Source of the DNA: Burkholderiales bacterium
GTDB lineage: Bacteria > Pseudomonadota > Gammaproteobacteria > Burkholderiales > Burkholderiaceae_C
DNA length: 47,018 nt
NCBI GenBank assembly: GCA_016213265.1
Contig: JACRBA010000191.1
Location: forward strand, 1-47,018
Direction of reading: 5' to 3'
Shown here: positions 11,487-19,611 of the stretch, piece by piece
How positions within the stretch are numbered: position 1 is the stretch's first letter
How the letters are laid out: the number at the start of each line of letters is the position of its first letter
The notes under the pieces: generated by a model
Databases searched by the model: none
What the model saw: only the letters and a program-made list of their open reading frames with translations
What the model was told of the DNA's origin: nothing
Made by a program: the position numbers and the translations under genes

Positions 11487-11942
11487 TCAGGCGCCGTGGG
11501 CGAGCGCGGCGCGCCCCGGGCTGTCACGCGGCGGCATGCGCACGCCCGTGCTGCGGCGCGCACGGCGGCGGGCCAGGTCGCGTGCCACGGCGGTCTGCCA
11601 GCCCAGGCTGTGGATGGCGTCGTTCCAGGCCAGCAGCTGCCGGCCATGGGCCACGGCCTCGCCGTCGGGCCCGAGCAGGCGGGCGTTGGAGCACACGCCC
11701 ATGGGGTTGGACAGCACCACCACACCCGGTTGCACCTCGCACCACTCCCAGCACAGGCCGATCGAGGCCGTGCCGCGCGGCACGCCCCAGACCACCTGGC
11801 CCTGTCCCTCGGTGCGGCACTCCGCCTGCGGCCAGTGGGTGATGCCCAGCGGCTCGAACCGGCGCACGGCGCGGGTCCAGTCGTCGAGGGTGGCCGTGAC
11901 CGGTTGCCACAGGCCCATCAGCGTCGGCAGGCGGCTTTTCAT
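11487..11942 (-). CDS. Conserved hypothetical protein
   Basis: 151 aa, no signal peptide, no membrane segment, Trp-rich (10 Trp including WDDW-, HWPQ-, WEW-, WND-type contexts). The C-terminal 35 residues are very Arg-rich (RDLARRRARRSTGVRMPPR). I do not recognise a domain. The SD-like GGGGAG lies about 9 nt before the ATG. It converges with the PFK gene (11 nt between stops) and is divergent from the LuxR gene at 12059, sharing a 116-bp intergenic region that contains a lux-box-like palindrome. It could therefore be co-regulated with the LuxR locus, but its own function is unknown. Confidence 0.65.
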   Translation of the reverse strand: MKSRLPTLMGLWQPVTATLDDWTRAVRRFEPLGITHWPQAECRTEGQGQVVWGVPRGTASIGLCWEWCEVQPGVVVLSNPMGVCSNARLLGPDGEAVAHGRQLLAWNDAIHSLGWQTAVARDLARRRARRSTGVRMPPRDSPGRAALAHGA

Positions 11943-12005
11943 GGATGTGTGCTCCCCGGGTTGCGATAGGCTTGCAGTCTCGTGTCACGCCCGGCCATCG
12001 ACAAG

Positions 12006-12021
12006 CCATCCGAACGGATAG
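12006..12021. promoter_or_regulatory. lux-box-like palindrome, copy 1
   Basis: CCATCCGAACGGATAG differs at a single position from the perfect CT-N12-AG palindrome at 12817-12832. It ends 37 nt before the luxR-type ATG (12059). LuxR-family dimers bind such 16-20 bp inverted repeats. The absence of a clear -10 at the class II distance means this copy could serve activation or repression (autoregulation). Confidence 0.65.
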
Positions 12022-12058
12022 TCCGTCTCATTCCGGGTGACCTCCTGATGACGTCCCG

Positions 12059-12772
12059 ATGAACCTGCAGCGCTACCTCGACATCAGCCAGTCGGCCGAC
12101 CCCACGGAGTTCAAGCGCCAGCTCATCGGCTTCGCGCACGAGATGGACTTCCCCCTGGTCAGTGCCAGCCTGGTGCTGGAGCGGCCGGGCACCGACCCGC
12201 AGTTCTTCTACATCGGCAACCGGCCGGAGGAGTTCAAGGCCAGCAGCGACCCGCGCCTGGCCATGCAGGACCCGGTGCTCACCCGGCTGCGCCGCCACGG
12301 GCTGCCGTTCATGTACGACCAGAAGTTCTACGTCGATGCCGGCGCGCCGGAGCTCTGGGACAACGCCGCGCCCTTCGGCTTTCGCACCGGCGTGTGCGTG
12401 GCGCTGCGCCTGTCGGGCCACCAGCAGTTCATCGTGGGGCTGGACCGGGAGCGGCCGCTGCCGCGCAGCGAGGCCAAGCTCACCCGGTTGCTGGCCGATC
12501 TTCAGCTGCTGGCGGTGCATTGCCAGGACGCTGCGCTGCGCTTCCTCACGGCTCCCCGGCCGGCGGCGGACGTGCCGGCGCTGTCGGCCCGCGAGCTCGA
12601 CGTGCTGCGCTGGACGCGCGCCGGCAAGACCGCCTGGGAGACCGGGCAGCTGCTGTCCATCAGCGAGGCCACGGTCAAGTACCACCTGAAGAACGTGCTG
12701 ACCAAGCTGGACGCCACGTCCAAGCACGTGGCGGTGCTGAAGGCGATTTCCCTGGGCCTGCTGGAGCCCTGA
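12059..12772 (+). CDS. LuxR-family (quorum-sensing type) transcriptional regulator, solo
   Basis: 237 aa, the usual size. Residues about 15-165 form an autoinducer-binding-like domain; 173-237 are the LuxR HTH (LSARELDVLRWTRAGKT, ISEATVKYHLKNVLTKL), keeping the invariant E179, L183 and G189. In the ligand domain D71-P72 and G111 align with TraR D70, P71 and G113, but W57 is replaced by Phe (F59), W85 by Met/Tyr, and the Tyr61 region by Ala/Ser. A standard acyl-HSL is thus doubtful. No luxI homologue lies in the window. Lux-box-like palindromes lie just upstream and just downstream, so autoregulation and control of the following short transcript are likely. No SD precedes the ATG. Confidence 0.88.
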   Translation: MNLQRYLDISQSADPTEFKRQLIGFAHEMDFPLVSASLVLERPGTDPQFFYIGNRPEEFKASSDPRLAMQDPVLTRLRRHGLPFMYDQKFYVDAGAPELWDNAAPFGFRTGVCVALRLSGHQQFIVGLDRERPLPRSEAKLTRLLADLQLLAVHCQDAALRFLTAPRPAADVPALSARELDVLRWTRAGKTAWETGQLLSISEATVKYHLKNVLTKLDATSKHVAVLKAISLGLLEP

Positions 12773-12816
12773 GCGGGGCTGTGCCTGCCCGGCCGGACAG
12801 GGGCGCGGGCGTGAAA

Positions 12817-12832
12817 CTATCCGAACGGATAG
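12817..12832. promoter_or_regulatory. lux-box-like palindrome, copy 2 (perfect)
   Basis: CTATCCGAACGGATAG: perfect 7-bp inverted repeat around AA and an exact CT-N12-AG lux/las-box layout. Its centre (12824.5) is 43-44 bp upstream of the transcription start predicted from the -10 at 12856, the position from which LuxR proteins activate as class II activators. Confidence 0.75.
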
Positions 12833-12855
12833 GTGGCATCCCGGCCCCCCTTTGC

Positions 12856-12861
12856 TGAAAT
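12856..12861 (+). promoter_or_regulatory. Extended -10 of the lux-box promoter
   Basis: TGAAAT preceded by TGC (extended -10). It predicts a start near 12868, about 32 nt before the 19-codon ORF. No -35 hexamer is evident; the lux-box-like palindrome covers that region. Confidence 0.5.
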
Positions 12862-12899
12862 GACTCCCATCCAAGGACGTCATCTGAAAGGGGCGAGAC

Positions 12900-12959
12900 A
12901 TGTGGGAAATCCTTCTCGAGGTGTTCGGCCTGTGCGGCATTCCGTACCCTGGCGCATGA
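12900..12959 (+). CDS. 19-aa micro-ORF downstream of the lux box
   Basis: MWEILLEVFGLCGIPYPGA, ATG 12900 to TGA 12957-12959. A purine-rich SD (AAAGGGGCGAGA) ends just upstream of the start codon. The peptide is hydrophobic, net acidic, and has one Cys; it lacks N-terminal basic residues, so it is not a standard Sec signal. It lies between a perfect lux-box-like palindrome with a matching -10 and a strong intrinsic terminator, with no longer gene on that predicted transcript. It could be a microprotein partner of a LuxR regulator, a precursor of a peptide signal, or a leader peptide. No known family recognised. Expression is inferred. Confidence 0.5.
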   Translation: MWEILLEVFGLCGIPYPGA

Positions 12960-13015
12960 CGGCATGGCCCGGGTGCCCCCCACGCAGGTGCTCGAAGGCA
13001 CCGCATCGACGGTGA
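12956..13015 (+). CDS. Second 19-aa micro-ORF, ATGA-coupled
   Basis: MTAWPGCPPRRCSKAPHRR, starting in the ATGA that ends the first micro-ORF. It is strongly basic with two Cys, opposite in charge to the first peptide. The overlap would allow translational coupling, but there is no SD of its own and in such GC-rich DNA a 20-codon open frame can occur by chance. Kept as a tentative entry because of the arrangement. Confidence 0.25.
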   Translation: MTAWPGCPPRRCSKAPHRR

Positions 13016-13133
13016 GGGGCCCGGCCTGGGAAGAGACAACAACACGCGCAAGGCGCACCACGCTCAGGGAAGACAACAGCGAATCCCTCCACAACCAGCG
13101 TCGGGGTCACCACCCTGGCTTGGTTGATCTTGC
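13016..13133 (+). ncRNA. Untranslated part of the lux-box transcript (possible small RNA)
   Basis: The interval 12773-13197 (425 nt) has no conventional gene. It holds lux box 2, the -10, two micro-ORFs, this 118-nt stretch and a terminator. The stretch is less GC-rich than its surroundings and contains a near-repeat (GGAAGAGACAACA at about 13028 and GGAAGACAACA at about 13069). The predicted transcript (about 12868-13173) would be about 305 nt, a plausible small-RNA size. No Rfam-type structure recognised. Confidence 0.3.
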
Positions 13134-13173
13134 GGGTGCTGGCGGGGATGCCGCCAGCACCCCTCTTTTTTTT
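13134..13173 (+). terminator. Strong intrinsic terminator
   Basis: Perfect 12-bp stem (GGGTGCTGGCGG / CCGCCAGCACCC) with a 5-nt loop, followed by CTC and eight T. It ends the lux-box transcript and lies 25 nt before the start of the second regulator, so it may also limit readthrough into that gene. Confidence 0.9.
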
Positions 13174-13197
13174 CGCCAGGCGGGAGCGAAGAGCGTC

Positions 13198-13938
13198 ATG
13201 CCGGAGAAGATGGGGGAGGTGATCGACGCGCTGCGATCGGCGGGCTCGGTGGCCCCGCTGCGCGCGCTGCTCGACAGCCTGGTGACACGCCACGCGCTGG
13301 CCTGGGGCCCGGCGATCGTGCATGCCGAGCAGCCTGAGGAGGCTGCCGCAGACGCGCCGCCGGTGCAGGTGAACTGGAGCGAGGCCACGCTCGAGGTGCC
13401 CTTGGCCGGCCGCTTCCTGGCCCCGCTGACCGCCGTGATGCGCCATGTGGCCAGCGTCACGCTGCACACCGTGTGGGACGCGGCGGACTACCGCACGCCC
13501 GGGCAGGGCGGCGAGTTCTACCGCGCCATGTCCGACTTCGTCACCAGCCGCGCGCTGCGCTTCGGGCTGTCGCTGCCCCGCACGGCGCACTGCCGCGTCG
13601 GTTTCGCCACGTCCTCGGCGGTGCTGGCCGACCGCGGCCAGGTGTTGCCGCTGATCGCGCAGGTGCAGGTGTTCGCCACGCACCTCGACGAACTCGGTCG
13701 CGCCTTGCTGCATTCACCCTACCAGCTCTCGCCGCTCACCTCGCCGCTGGATGCCGGCGAGGTGGAAGTGCTGCAGGGCCTGCTCGCCGGCCGCAGCACG
13801 GCCGACCTCGGCCTGGCGCTGCGCATGTCGCAGCCCGCGGTGCGCAAGCGCGCCACCTCGGCGGCGGAGAAGCTGGGCTGCGTGGGCGCCCACCAGGCGG
13901 CGGCCCGGGCGCTGCACATGGGCTGGCTGGCCGCCTGA
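13198..13938 (+). CDS. Divergent LuxR-family regulator
   Basis: 246 aa from ATG 13198. The C-terminal 65 residues align with LuxR HTH domains (SPLDAGEVEVLQGLLAGRS, LRMSQPAVRKRATSAAEKLG), keeping E188 and G198, with Ala/Arg substitutions in the recognition helix. Residues 1-175 are helical/beta-like and may be a degenerate ligand domain, but no acyl-HSL contact residues can be identified. The frame stays open upstream to ATG 12964 (324 aa), but that form would read through the terminator stem and exceeds the family size. No promoter is evident between terminator and ATG, so expression may depend on readthrough. It could oppose or heterodimerise with the LuxR at 12059; inferred. Confidence 0.7.
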   Translation: MPEKMGEVIDALRSAGSVAPLRALLDSLVTRHALAWGPAIVHAEQPEEAAADAPPVQVNWSEATLEVPLAGRFLAPLTAVMRHVASVTLHTVWDAADYRTPGQGGEFYRAMSDFVTSRALRFGLSLPRTAHCRVGFATSSAVLADRGQVLPLIAQVQVFATHLDELGRALLHSPYQLSPLTSPLDAGEVEVLQGLLAGRSTADLGLALRMSQPAVRKRATSAAEKLGCVGAHQAAARALHMGWLAA

Positions 13939-13960: not shown

Positions 13961-15806
13961 TCAGCGGGGGCGGTCGTCGCGGGGCTCGCCCGGGGCACCA
14001 GCGCCCTCGCTCGCCTCGTCGCTGCTGAGCTGCTGAAGTTCCACCAGGCGGCGGTACAGGCCGCCGTCGATCGCCATCAGCGCCTCGTGCGGCCCGGCTT
14101 CGGCGATGCGGCCGTGGTTGAGCACCACGATGCGGTCCGCATCGCGGATGGTGGACAGGCGGTGGGCGATGGAAATCAGCGTGAGCCGGCCGCGCAATGC
14201 CGCCAGTGCCCGCTGCACCACCGCCTCGGTCTCGCTGTCCACATGCGAGGTGGCCTCGTCCAGCAGCAGGATCTTCGGCTGCCCGGCCAGGGCACGGGCG
14301 ATGGCGATGAGCTGCTTCTCGCCCACCGCCAGGCGGGCGCCGCCTTCGCCGAGCCGGGTCTGGTAGCCGTGCTCCAGCCGCTCGATGAAATCGTGCGCGC
14401 CGGCGGCCCGGGCGGCCTGCTGCACCTGGGCCTCGTTCAGGGGCCGGCCCATGGCGATGTTCTCGTGCACCGTGGTGGCCAGCAGGAACGGCTCCTGCGG
14501 CACCAGGCCCACCGCGTCACGGAAGGCCTCCTCGTCCAGGCTGGCGATGGGCTGGCCATCCACGAGCAGCTGTCCGCCGGTGGGCACATAGAAGCGCAGC
14601 AGCAGCGACAGCAGGCTGGACTTGCCGCTGCCGGTCGGCCCCACGATGCCGATGAACTCGCCCGGCGCGATGTCCAGAATCACCTGCCGCAGCACCGGCA
14701 CCCCGGGCGTGTAGGCGAAGTCCAGCGCCTCGGCGCGCACGGCGCCGGCCGTCACCCGCCCGGTGGCGGCCGGCCGGTCGGCCTCGGCTTCGTCCAGCAG
14801 CGTGTTCACGCGCGCGGCGGCGATGATGGCCTGTTGCAGCTGCGAGAACTGCATGGTCAGCTGGATGAGTGGCTCGGTCACCCGGCCCACGTAGCTCACG
14901 AACGCATACAGCACGCCCACCTCGATGGCGCTGAGTGTGCCGCCTGCTTCGCGCAGGCCGAACACCGCGATCACCACCGCGAGCATGGCCACGTTAAGCA
15001 GGTCCAGCGCCGGGCGCAGCAGCCAGGCGTTGGCCTTCAGCTCGGTGCGCCGCGACTCATAGTGCGAGCGGTTGATGTGGGCGTAGCGTTCGCCGTAGCG
15101 TTGCGTGGCGCCGGTGGCCTGCAGCACCGCCATGCCGCTGATCGATTCCGCCGTCTGCGCGTTCAGCTCGCTGCGCAGCTCGCGCGTGCGCGCCACCGCG
15201 GGGGCCGACAGGCGCTGGTACAGGTAGACGATGCCGAAGACGGCCGGCACCAGGGCCGTCACGATGAGCATGAGCCGCCAGTCCAGGAAGGCCATGGTCA
15301 CCAGCAGGCTGGCCAGCATGATCAGCGCGTCCAGCATGACGAACAGCACCTGCACGTACAGCTGCTTCACCGCCTCGGTGTCGTTGGTGACGCGGCTGAC
15401 CAGCTGGCCGGTGATGGCCTTGTCGAAGAAGGCCATGGGCAGGCGCAGCACATGGCCGTACACCGACTCGCGGATGCGCCGCACCGAGCGCATGGCCACG
15501 CCGGCCAGCCGGCTGAGCTGGCGGTAGCGCACCCAGCTGGCCACCCAGCCGGCCACCAGGGCACCCAGCAGCAGGCCGGCCATGGCGCCGATGGCCGGGT
15601 CGCGGGGCAGCAGGTAGCGGTCGATGAAGGCCTTGCCCAGCACCGGGCCCAGCGCGTCCAGGCCGGCCGCCAGCGCGAGCCAGGCCAGGCCGGCCCACAG
15701 GTGGGCGGATTCGGGCCGCGCGGCGCGCCACAGCAGCGCGGCGGCTCGGCGGGCGGGGGTGCCGCCGGTTTCCGGCTCGGCGGAGGTGGGCGGGGCCACA
15801 GCGGTG

Positions 15807-15820
<14 letters not shown>
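13961..15820 (-). CDS. mdlB: ABC exporter half, MdlB/SmdB-like
   Basis: 619 aa from TTG 15820, chosen because GGAGG sits 6 nt upstream. Six-helix exporter domain (about 20-310) then an ATPase: Walker A GPTGSGKSS (about 392), a degenerate signature LAVGEKQL (about 495; canonical LSGGQ), Walker B with catalytic Glu (LLLDEATSHVD) and switch His (IAHRLSTIRDADR). It forms a heterodimer with the upstream product; the pair carries one consensus and one degenerate ATP site, as in E. coli MdlA/MdlB and other asymmetric multidrug or lipid exporters. The gene overlaps its partner by 14 nt, so translation should be coupled. Substrate unknown. Confidence 0.88.
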
Positions 15821-17558
<1,738 letters not shown>

Positions 17559-17580
17559 GGTGCGGCGGGCGAAGCGCGCG

Positions 17581-17586
17581 ATTCTA
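17581..17586 (-). promoter_or_regulatory. -10 hexamer TAGAAT of the ABC operon
   Basis: On the minus strand TAGAAT (5 of 6 to consensus) lies 22 nt upstream of the mdlA ATG. A convincing -35 was not found. Confidence 0.4.
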
Positions 17587-17652
17587 GTGAGGGGCCGTGA
17601 CCGCTGCTGACAGCGCCACAATGCCGGGTTGCCGCTGCTGTACTGCCCGCCC

Positions 17653-19611
17653 ATGGCCAAGGATTTCGACCACATGGAGGACTCCAACCGGAGTGCCAAC
17701 CCGACCTTCGACGAGGTGTCCGATCCGGCCCGCCGGCAATGGCTGCGGGGCGGGGCGGCCGCACTCGGGGCCCTGGCGGCGCCCGGCTGGCTGGCCGGCT
17801 GCGTGCCGGTGGCGCTGGCTCCTCGCCATGCCGGCGGCCCGGGCGTTCCCCCGTCCCAGGGCGCCGCAGGCGCGGCCGGGTTCCGGCTCGGCTTCTCGCC
17901 CGTGGCCATGGCGGCCGTGGACACCGTGGCGGTGCCGGCGGGCTACCGCGCCGAGGTGCTGCTGCGCTGGGGCGACCCGGTGGGCATCGCCGGTCGCATG
18001 CCGGCCTTTCGGCCGGACGCGGCCAACACCGCCGAGGACCAGGCGCTGCAGGCCGGCATGCACCACGACGGCATGGCGTACTTCCCGCTAAACGGCGCCC
18101 GGCGCGGCCTGCTGGCAATCAACCACGAGTACACCGACGAAGGCCTGCTGCACCCGGACGGCCGGGCCGGCTGGTCGCCCGAGAAGGCGCGCAAGTCCAT
18201 GGCGGCGCACGGTGTGTCGGTGATCGAGGTGGCGCGGGGCGATGACGGGTGGCGGGTGGTGCGTCCGTCGCGTTACGCGCGCCGGCTCACGGCCACCACG
18301 CCGATGCGGCTGTCCGGGCCGGCGGCCGGCCACCCCATGATGCGCACGGCGGCCGACAGCACCGGCCGCCGCGTGCTGGGCACCTTCAACAACTGCGCCA
18401 ACGGCCAGACGCCCTGGGGCACCTACCTCACCTGCGAGGAGAACTGGGCCGGCTACTTCGAGGGCCCGGCCGAGCCCGACGCGCACCAGCGCCGCTGGGG
18501 CATTGCAGCCGGCTTGGGCGGCTGGTACCGCTGGCACGAGGCCGACGAGCGCTTCGACGCCCGCCTGCACCCGAACGAGCCCAACCGCTTCGGCTGGGTG
18601 GTGGAGATCGACCCCGCCGACCCGGCCAGCACGCCCGTCAAGCGCACGGCGCTGGGCCGCGCCGCGCACGAGGGCGCGGCCACCGCGCTCACGGCCGACG
18701 GCCGGGCGGTCGTCTACATGGGCGAGGACGCGCGCTTCGAGTACATCTACAAGTTCGTCAGCCGCCAGCGCATGCGCCCCGGCGGCGCGGCCGCCAACCG
18801 CGAGCTGCTCGACCACGGCACACTGTACGTGGCGCGCTTTGGCGCCGATGGCCGTGGCCAGTGGTTGCCGCTGGTGCATGGGCAGGGCCCGCTCACGGCG
18901 GCCCATGGTTTCGCCGACCAGGGGCAGGTGCTCATCCAGTCGCGCCAGGCGAGCGACCTGCTGGGCGCCACGAAGATGGACCGTCCCGAGTGGACCGCGG
19001 TGGACCCGGTGACGCGCACCGTCTACTGCACGCTCACCAACAACAGCGCCCGTGGCCGGCCGGGCCAGCCGGGGCCCGATGCGGCCAACCCGCGCGAGGC
19101 CAACACCATGGGCCAGATCATCCGCTGGCGCGAGGACGGCGACCTGGACGCCACCACCTTCACCTGGGACCACCTGGTGCTGGCGGGCGACCCGCTGGCC
19201 GAGCGCCCCGCCGCCCGTGGCAACGTGCACGGCGATGTCTTCGGCAGCCCGGATGGCCTGTGGGTGGACCCGCGCGGCGTGCTGTGGGTGCAGACGGATG
19301 CCTCCTCCTCGGTGATGGGCCAGGGCGACTACGCCCGGCTGCCCAACAACCAGATGCTGGCCTGCGACCCGGCCACCGGCGAGTTCCGCCGCTTCCTCGT
19401 GGGGCCGCGCGGCTGCGAGGTCACCGGCATCGCCATGGCGCCCGACCTGCGCAGCCTGTTCGTCAACATCCAGCACCCGGGCGAGCCGCCGAACGACGAG
19501 AGCGATCCGGCCGACCCGGCCCGGCACTCCAGCTGGCCCGATGGGCAGGGCCGGCCCCGCTCGGCCACGGTGGTGATCACGCGCGAGGACGGCGGGCCGA
19601 TCGGCAGCTGA
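17653..19611 (+). CDS. PhoX-family phosphatase (DUF839)
   Basis: 652 aa from ATG 17653. The N-terminus MAKDFDHMEDSNRSANPTFD is typical of proteobacterial PhoX, which supports this start. A twin-arginine signal (RRQWL at 27-31, then a hydrophobic stretch AAALGALAAPGWLAGC) sends the folded protein across the inner membrane; C50 in LAGC could be lipidated. PhoX is a Ca/Fe-dependent beta-propeller alkaline phosphatase releasing phosphate from organic esters. Conserved propeller segments include the TCEENWAGYF (about residue 260), YMGEDARFEYIYKF, NVHGDVFGSPDGLWVD and SSWPDGQGRPRSATVVI regions. No Pho box could be recognised upstream. Divergent from the ABC operon. Confidence 0.9.
   Translation: MAKDFDHMEDSNRSANPTFDEVSDPARRQWLRGGAAALGALAAPGWLAGCVPVALAPRHAGGPGVPPSQGAAGAAGFRLGFSPVAMAAVDTVAVPAGYRAEVLLRWGDPVGIAGRMPAFRPDAANTAEDQALQAGMHHDGMAYFPLNGARRGLLAINHEYTDEGLLHPDGRAGWSPEKARKSMAAHGVSVIEVARGDDGWRVVRPSRYARRLTATTPMRLSGPAAGHPMMRTAADSTGRRVLGTFNNCANGQTPWGTYLTCEENWAGYFEGPAEPDAHQRRWGIAAGLGGWYRWHEADERFDARLHPNEPNRFGWVVEIDPADPASTPVKRTALGRAAHEGAATALTADGRAVVYMGEDARFEYIYKFVSRQRMRPGGAAANRELLDHGTLYVARFGADGRGQWLPLVHGQGPLTAAHGFADQGQVLIQSRQASDLLGATKMDRPEWTAVDPVTRTVYCTLTNNSARGRPGQPGPDAANPREANTMGQIIRWREDGDLDATTFTWDHLVLAGDPLAERPAARGNVHGDVFGSPDGLWVDPRGVLWVQTDASSSVMGQGDYARLPNNQMLACDPATGEFRRFLVGPRGCEVTGIAMAPDLRSLFVNIQHPGEPPNDESDPADPARHSSWPDGQGRPRSATVVITREDGGPIGS

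Follow-up and report, generated by a model that had tools for sequence, protein, structure and literature searches.

A small peptide gene with a candidate signalling role beside a LuxR solo and an RsaM-like gene in Burkholderiales

Introduction

In the Rgg-SHP and ComC/ComA systems of Gram-positive bacteria, a short or a double-glycine peptide is encoded beside a regulator, a C39 ABC exporter is used, and the circuit runs by positive feedback. Most LuxR solos have no known ligand. According to one census, solos make up 75% of luxR genes (PMC4357305). PipR has been described as a LuxR homologue that responds to peptides imported by an ABC transporter (PMC4981722). RsaM has been described as a dominant regulator of acyl-homoserine lactone (AHL) quorum sensing, and the same source lists rsaM-luxR solo pairs in Pelomonas and others, under a 'type 6' topology (PMC10710839).

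Here we describe a module found on a stretch of 47,018 nucleotides from a Burkholderiales bacterium (contig JACRBA010000191.1), referred to below as the window. A preliminary description of this DNA had proposed a self-contained unit, in which a lux-box-controlled short transcript lies between two LuxR-family genes and no autoinducer synthase is present. The analysis supports a self-contained module under lux-box control and without a synthase, and the micro-ORF recurs in the corresponding position of related loci. In the open-access literature (titles and the beginnings of abstracts, with bioRxiv and most subscription journals outside the search) we found no description of such a module.

Results

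For comparison we took the best 80 of 214 confirmed relatives, all of them named Burkholderiales loci, which together with the window make a set of 81. The closest of these 80 was L055, from Vitreoscilla sp. MAG_67, whose LuxR1 is 65% identical to that of the window. Its layout is that of the window: RsaM-like gene, LuxR1, box, −10 element, 19-residue ORF, terminator and LuxR2.

LuxR1 of the window (12059–12772, + strand) matched Autoind_bind (E 5.5e-14) and GerE (4e-16) in Pfam, in agreement with its earlier assignment to the LuxR family. A Gram-positive-type receptor was ruled out by these two domains; the only other Pfam matches were weak ones to HTH and sigma regions, none of them to the TPR receptor that defines an RRNPP (Rgg) system. 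An AlphaFold2 model of LuxR1 was obtained with a mean pLDDT of 90.8, and RhlR, SdiA and QscR were its best matches in Foldseek. The model, of high confidence, predicts an RhlR/SdiA-like protein that folds like RhlR, SdiA and LasR.

The AHL synthase family (PF00765) gave no match in the window's draft genome (89.9% complete), as expected from the earlier claim that a synthase is lacking, and LuxI was not found in another genome of the same genus (G076). LuxR1 has both domains of a LuxR solo and no cognate luxI was found for it in the draft genome. Among 38 genomes with a receptor match of at least 158 bits, five had any PF00765 match. The match was strong in three (G013, G028 and G127), each time on a contig other than that of the receptor. 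It was weak and partial (35 bits) in the other two, lying on another contig in G103 and on the receptor's contig, about 15 kb off, in G034.

The module has a third part that was absent from the preliminary description, namely an RsaM-like (DUF4902-type) gene at 11487–11942 (− strand), divergent from luxR. The window protein alone gave no Pfam match; its L055 counterpart matched PF16245 DUF4902 (E 5e-7) and the RsaM structure 4o2h (E 3e-4). With a family HMM seeded by the proteins of the window, L055 and L063, the gene was found divergent from the receptor in 79 of the 81 loci, the window included, and was not found in L086 (where the contig ends) or L097. The score of the window protein (E 1.6e-33) is circular, as this protein is itself a seed.

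The same palindrome had been reported on both sides of LuxR1, and a 16-mer search recovered both sites. The box of the peptide promoter, CTATCCGAACGGATAG (12817–12832), starts after 44 bases downstream of the LuxR1 stop, and its half-sites pair at 7 of 8 positions, the sole exception being the two centre bases. The upstream box, CCATCCGAACGGATAG (12006–12021), begins with CC, where the pattern first given has CT. Allowing up to three mismatches, the window held four matches, that is, the two sites on both strands, against 0.02 expected. Without mismatch, the box pattern occurred in the 4.6 Mb draft genome at these two sites only. Two further genomic sites matched with one mismatch; a wider regulon was rejected, since neither of them has the −10 promoter element.

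Downstream of the second box lies an extended −10, TTGCTGAAAT (12852–12861, + strand; hexamer 12856–12861), the correctly spaced promoter signal noticed earlier, and the same element and spacing are conserved in an alignment of 67 loci. The 67 boxes had been chosen without −10 information. The alignment displayed TGCTtcAAT at 20–29 nt 3′ of the box, with a variable spacer; A27 was conserved in 63 loci, T29 in 59 and G22 in 54. The spacing is the class II activation geometry of LuxR proteins. From the conserved −10, transcription would start near 12868, in agreement with the preliminary description. The distance from the end of the box to the ATG had a median of 74 nt (IQR 71–78, n = 64). The transcript would end at an intrinsic terminator (13134–13173, + strand) made of a 12-pair stem (13134–13162) and a T-run, as strong as first described; this region is 76% alike in L055, which also has a terminator there.

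An upstream box with a passing score was present in 53 of the 81 loci. In these, a CACACT-like −10 was conserved between the box and the RsaM-like gene, but not between the box and luxR. The tentative −10 of the window's RsaM-like gene (11976–11981, − strand) reads GAGACT, shifted by one base. The palindrome before luxR is therefore present as claimed, but it probably serves the RsaM-like gene and not luxR. LuxR1 is thus the probable activator of the peptide gene as well as of the RsaM-like gene.

The 19-codon ORF proposed for the short transcript is present at 12900–12959 (+ strand) and encodes MWEILLEVFGLCGIPYPGA, a candidate pheromone precursor. L055 carries a 19-residue ORF, MFEFFCDLMARCGFPYAGG, at the same place; it is identical to that of the window at 7 of 19 residues, in register, and five of these seven identities fall within the last eight positions. 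The palindrome and the ORF are both conserved in position among related loci, and the preliminary description thus withstands the refuting condition that it had set for them.

Precursor genes were called throughout the set by fixed rules on the box, the −10, the ribosome-binding site and the length, with the peptide sequence left unused. A small ORF was called after the receptor in 75 of the 81 loci. Among the six others, ORFs are visible by eye in L061 and L066, contigs end in L118 and L121, and no peptide ORF was found in L067 and L083. A C-terminal proline-x-x-glycine/tryptophan core, defined by a loose regular expression, was present in 64 of the 75 called precursors, compared with 201 of 1552 random positions (13%) within these loci and 11 of 75 alternative ORF candidates from the same regions. 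The eleven called precursors lacking it include that of the window, which ends in IPYPGA; this end and those of L130 and L132 are variants of the core. The P-x-x-G core is internal to the ORF in L065, L074 and L105, and lies in a frame different from the called one in L080 and L085. In L071, L079 and L082 the called ORF has no core.

The expressions for the core and for the leader (see below) were both written after the first loci had been seen. The core expression was therefore frozen and run, with the caller unchanged, on new loci. There were 53 of these, from a pair of searches that each covered 399 genomes of the family; 32 were exact copies of earlier loci and three had too little flank. 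Twelve of the 18 left matched; with three repeats removed, 9 of 15 distinct loci did so (binomial P 2e-5 if the loci are independent; the set may include near relatives of the first ones). The six distinct misses comprised three internal cores (L201, L202 and L236), two likely wrong ORF picks (L212 and L226) and one boxless locus (L200).

Among pairs of precursors (at least 70% alike, 14–60 codons, the pairs overlapping), dN was below dS in 40 of 44, with a median ratio of 0.30. Conservation by codon position, taken over eleven Roseateles/Pelomonas-type loci, was highest at position 2 (0.78) and lowest at position 3 (0.40). The synonymous bias anticipated for the 19 codons is seen at the level of the precursor family, the relatives found being too distant to show it for these very codons. 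In our judgement the small ORF is a genuine peptide gene under selection and belongs to the LuxR/RsaM module; this is nearly certain for the family and very likely for the window.

Regarding its distribution, the receptor was found at E 1e-40 or better in 102 of 399 family genomes and in 38 of 141 genera, the counts being of receptor homology and not of the peptide. Within the window's genus, a receptor scoring above 170 bits was present in 14 of the 15 other genomes. In an order-wide search of 300 genomes, scores above 200 bits occurred, among the matches listed, only in the window's genome (G000), G091 and G274. As the query alignment included LuxR2, its own LuxR2 score is circular. G274 belongs to another family, and no such peptide was found within 330 nt of its receptor.

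The main role of the transcript could also be that of a regulatory RNA, with or without the peptide. We regard such a main role as improbable, although the window transcript folds better than its shuffles (z −2.5, terminator hairpin included), CCCTCCACAAYCAGC turned up within the genus only at LuxR-peptide loci, and a hairpin of the type CGTTCGG(6 nt)CCGAACG is common to ten Pelomonas/Roseateles-type loci. In its 3′ portion, the window transcript carries a 15-nt element, CCCTCCACAACCAGC (13085–13099, + strand), which occurred at three places in 16 genomes of the genus, all three being LuxR-peptide loci (the window and two in G162). Across the family these RNA parts are not conserved, whereas the peptide core is, and the only Rfam matches in the window were two tRNAs, with none at the transcript. 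A hairpin with a C-rich loop was rejected as a general feature, since it was found in 23 of 75 loci against 23 expected from shuffles.

Two types of precursor could be distinguished. In the leader type, an LxxxxLxxVxGG-like leader is followed by one to four cores, e.g., SPKGTW or LPRGTW. The short type has mostly 16–24 residues and a core such as LPRTGGW or FPYTGG, the window having IPYPGA; in a few short-type precursors the core precedes a hydrophobic tail. Exact tandem repeats of five or more residues were present in 15 of the 75 precursors (shuffle mean 0.1). Genes for HlyD and for a peptidase-C39 ABC transporter lie downstream in 34 of the 81 loci, and every one of these 34 has the leader; five further called loci had the leader only, none the exporter only and 36 neither (Fisher 3e-16). 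Leader and exporter occur together in, for instance, L102 (Rivibacter subsaxonicus DSM 19570) and L129 (Roseateles noduli HZ7). L126, a leader-only locus, is cut short by its contig end, and L104, among the 36, has just 1 kb of flank. On the receptor tree, whose root is arbitrary, two changes between precursor types are required. L112 and L134, which have neither leader nor exporter, are placed among the leader-type receptors, which suggests that both features were lost together there.

The double-glycine/C39 combination of the 34 relatives is not found in the window, which has neither a double-glycine leader nor an adjacent C39 exporter; no C39 domain (PF03412) was detected anywhere in its genome. 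On the receptor tree the window falls within a clade of 37 rows that has full support and consists of 33 short-type and four uncalled rows. As leader and adjacent exporter are lacking in this clade, its short peptide would leave the cell by another route or act inside it. An ABC exporter pair at 13961–17924 (− strand) found no support as the peptide exporter: it has no C39 domain, and downstream in L055 no obvious ABC exporter appeared in the ORF list, most of which is unannotated. In the leaderless clade, then, an unsecreted peptide could bind LuxR1 intracellularly as a co-activator or anti-activator. Other proteins do bind LuxR proteins, the LasR-Aqs1 and RhlR-PqsE structures being among the Foldseek matches, but a similar P-x-x-G core occurs in exporter-adjacent loci. 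A secreted signal is therefore favoured for the family, and intracellular action appears unlikely.

Receptor columns of the 81 loci were mapped through an alignment with LasR, in which Y56, W60 and D73 are the contacts to the AHL head group. Only the D73 equivalent is kept (80 of 81 receptors) and the set of three contacts is incomplete across the 81. The Y56 equivalent is Tyr in none of them, and at W60 Trp is retained in 4 and replaced by Phe/Tyr in 76. At the W88 column, all 39 leader-type receptors have Trp, and 33 of the 36 short-type ones have Tyr. These pocket changes fit a non-AHL ligand and a matching of receptor to peptide, but clade structure might by itself account for the W88 pattern. 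Since D73 is kept, the ligand may still be a small molecule.

The retained D73 also agrees with a view of the peptide as output only, i.e., a bacteriocin or secreted effector, with LuxR1 sensing an unrelated ligand such as a neighbour's AHL or a plant compound. Double-glycine leaders and C39 exporters serve bacteriocins too, and one of seven precursors scanned gave weak, sub-cut-off bacteriocin/lantibiotic matches (best E 0.01). Tandem six-residue cores and forms of 16–24 residues are, however, unlike the bacteriocins that we know. Moreover, the precursor adjoins an RsaM-luxR pair without luxI, the W88 column tracks the precursor type, and genes for modification or immunity were not noted among the partly annotated neighbours. 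We hold this explanation to be quite unlikely. The conserved core, the tandem repetition and the co-inherited exporter make the peptide a candidate signal, that is, an input of the circuit. The peptide, named at first with the RNA as a possible output, is probably more than that.

The second LuxR-like regulator, LuxR2 (13198–13938, + strand), is matched in L055 by a counterpart in the corresponding position. The window's LuxR2 matches GerE only weakly (E 0.036), short of the Pfam cut-off for that family. In the tree it groups with LuxR2 of L055 (34% identical, support 100/99) on long branches, as a fast-evolving protein. It had been called divergent, which is true of its sequence but not of its orientation, as it lies on the same strand as LuxR1.

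Discussion

From comparison of sequences, we consider it probable that the module works as a quorum-sensing circuit in which a LuxR receptor is combined with a peptide autoinducer, whose gene takes the place of luxI. LuxR1 would activate two promoters through lux-type boxes. One would produce the short transcript with the small peptide precursor, giving positive feedback; the other would produce the divergent RsaM-like protein, probably a brake. In place of an AHL, the ligand of LuxR1 would be the whole peptide or a piece of six to eight residues around its P-x-x-G-W/G core. In many relatives the double-glycine precursor would probably be cut and exported by the adjacent C39 ABC transporter with its HlyD adaptor. 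The peptide would be translated, secreted, taken up and bound by LuxR1, and the circuit activated.

More broadly, we lean towards the view that a group of Burkholderiales senses ribosomal peptide pheromones by LuxR-type receptors, the features in common being a precursor that replaces luxI, feedback through the lux box and a partner of the RsaM type; in many genomes a leader-cleaving exporter would accompany the precursor. Many solos are presented here with a genetically linked candidate ligand which, being encoded in DNA, can be synthesised and tested directly. If the proposal is true, a Gram-negative receptor class and a Gram-positive signal class are joined in one circuit which, judged by receptor homology, would occur in roughly one in four of the genomes sampled from the window's family. 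Confirmation would give LuxR receptors a class of self-made, readily diversified peptide signals, and variants of receptor and signal would stand already paired in dozens of genomes for studies of specificity.

With the LuxI/LuxR AHL systems that have RsaM (Burkholderia, Acinetobacter), the module shares the LuxR fold, the lux-type box in its class II promoter arrangement and the adjacent RsaM-type gene. It differs from them in that luxI was not found, a small ORF with a recurring core standing in its role, and in that two of the three AHL head-group contact positions are altered. As for the 'type 6' RsaM-LuxR solo pairs, the main text of the paper listing them is without the word 'peptide' (PMC10710839). 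The LuxR solos PipR and OryR offer the precedent of a peptide-responsive LuxR homologue, as proposed here. Their peptides are external and imported, and a precursor gene paired with the receptor is not mentioned in the accessible part of the source (PMC4981722). The likeness to Rgg-SHP and ComC/ComA lies in the peptide gene beside the regulator, the C39 ABC exporter (in relatives) and the proposed positive feedback, while the receptor here is a LuxR autoinducer-binding protein and not an RRNPP protein or a histidine kinase. The module fits the definition of an AHL system as little as that of a Gram-positive peptide system, and its receptor is by definition a LuxR solo.

Possible RNA elements downstream of the peptide gene

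In the window, the peptide transcript carries the 15-nt element CCCTCCACAAYCAGC (13085-13099) close to its 3′ end. A search of 16 genomes from the window's genus gave three copies in all, every one (3/3) downstream of a LuxR-linked peptide gene; the other two lie in one genome, G162, on contigs C196 (27543) and C148 (28120).

A CGTTCGG[6 nt]CCGAACG-type hairpin, 3′ of the peptide stop, is common to ten Pelomonas/Roseateles-type loci (L056, L057, L059, L064, L070, L073, L075, L076, L077 and L081), and in most of them AAAGCGACACCTCCATCGCTTT stands ahead of it. This hairpin is possibly a small-RNA part of the peptide transcript.

Neighboring exporter and regulator genes

In the window, a pair of ABC exporter genes on the reverse strand (13961-15952 and 15807-17924), both lacking a C39 domain, terminates beside LuxR2. 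At L055/L196 (G162 C196), the closest relative found for the window's locus, LuxR2 is immediately followed by a second RsaM-like gene; past the first RsaM-like gene there is a third LuxR, encoded on the opposite strand.

Four additional tandem LuxR paralogues follow the receptor-peptide pair in L193 (G096 C20), where two HlyD/C39 exporter sets were found nearby, and precede it in L194 (G066 C143). In neither locus were these extra paralogues seen to have a separate box-linked core peptide; possibly, they are receptors with one signal in common.
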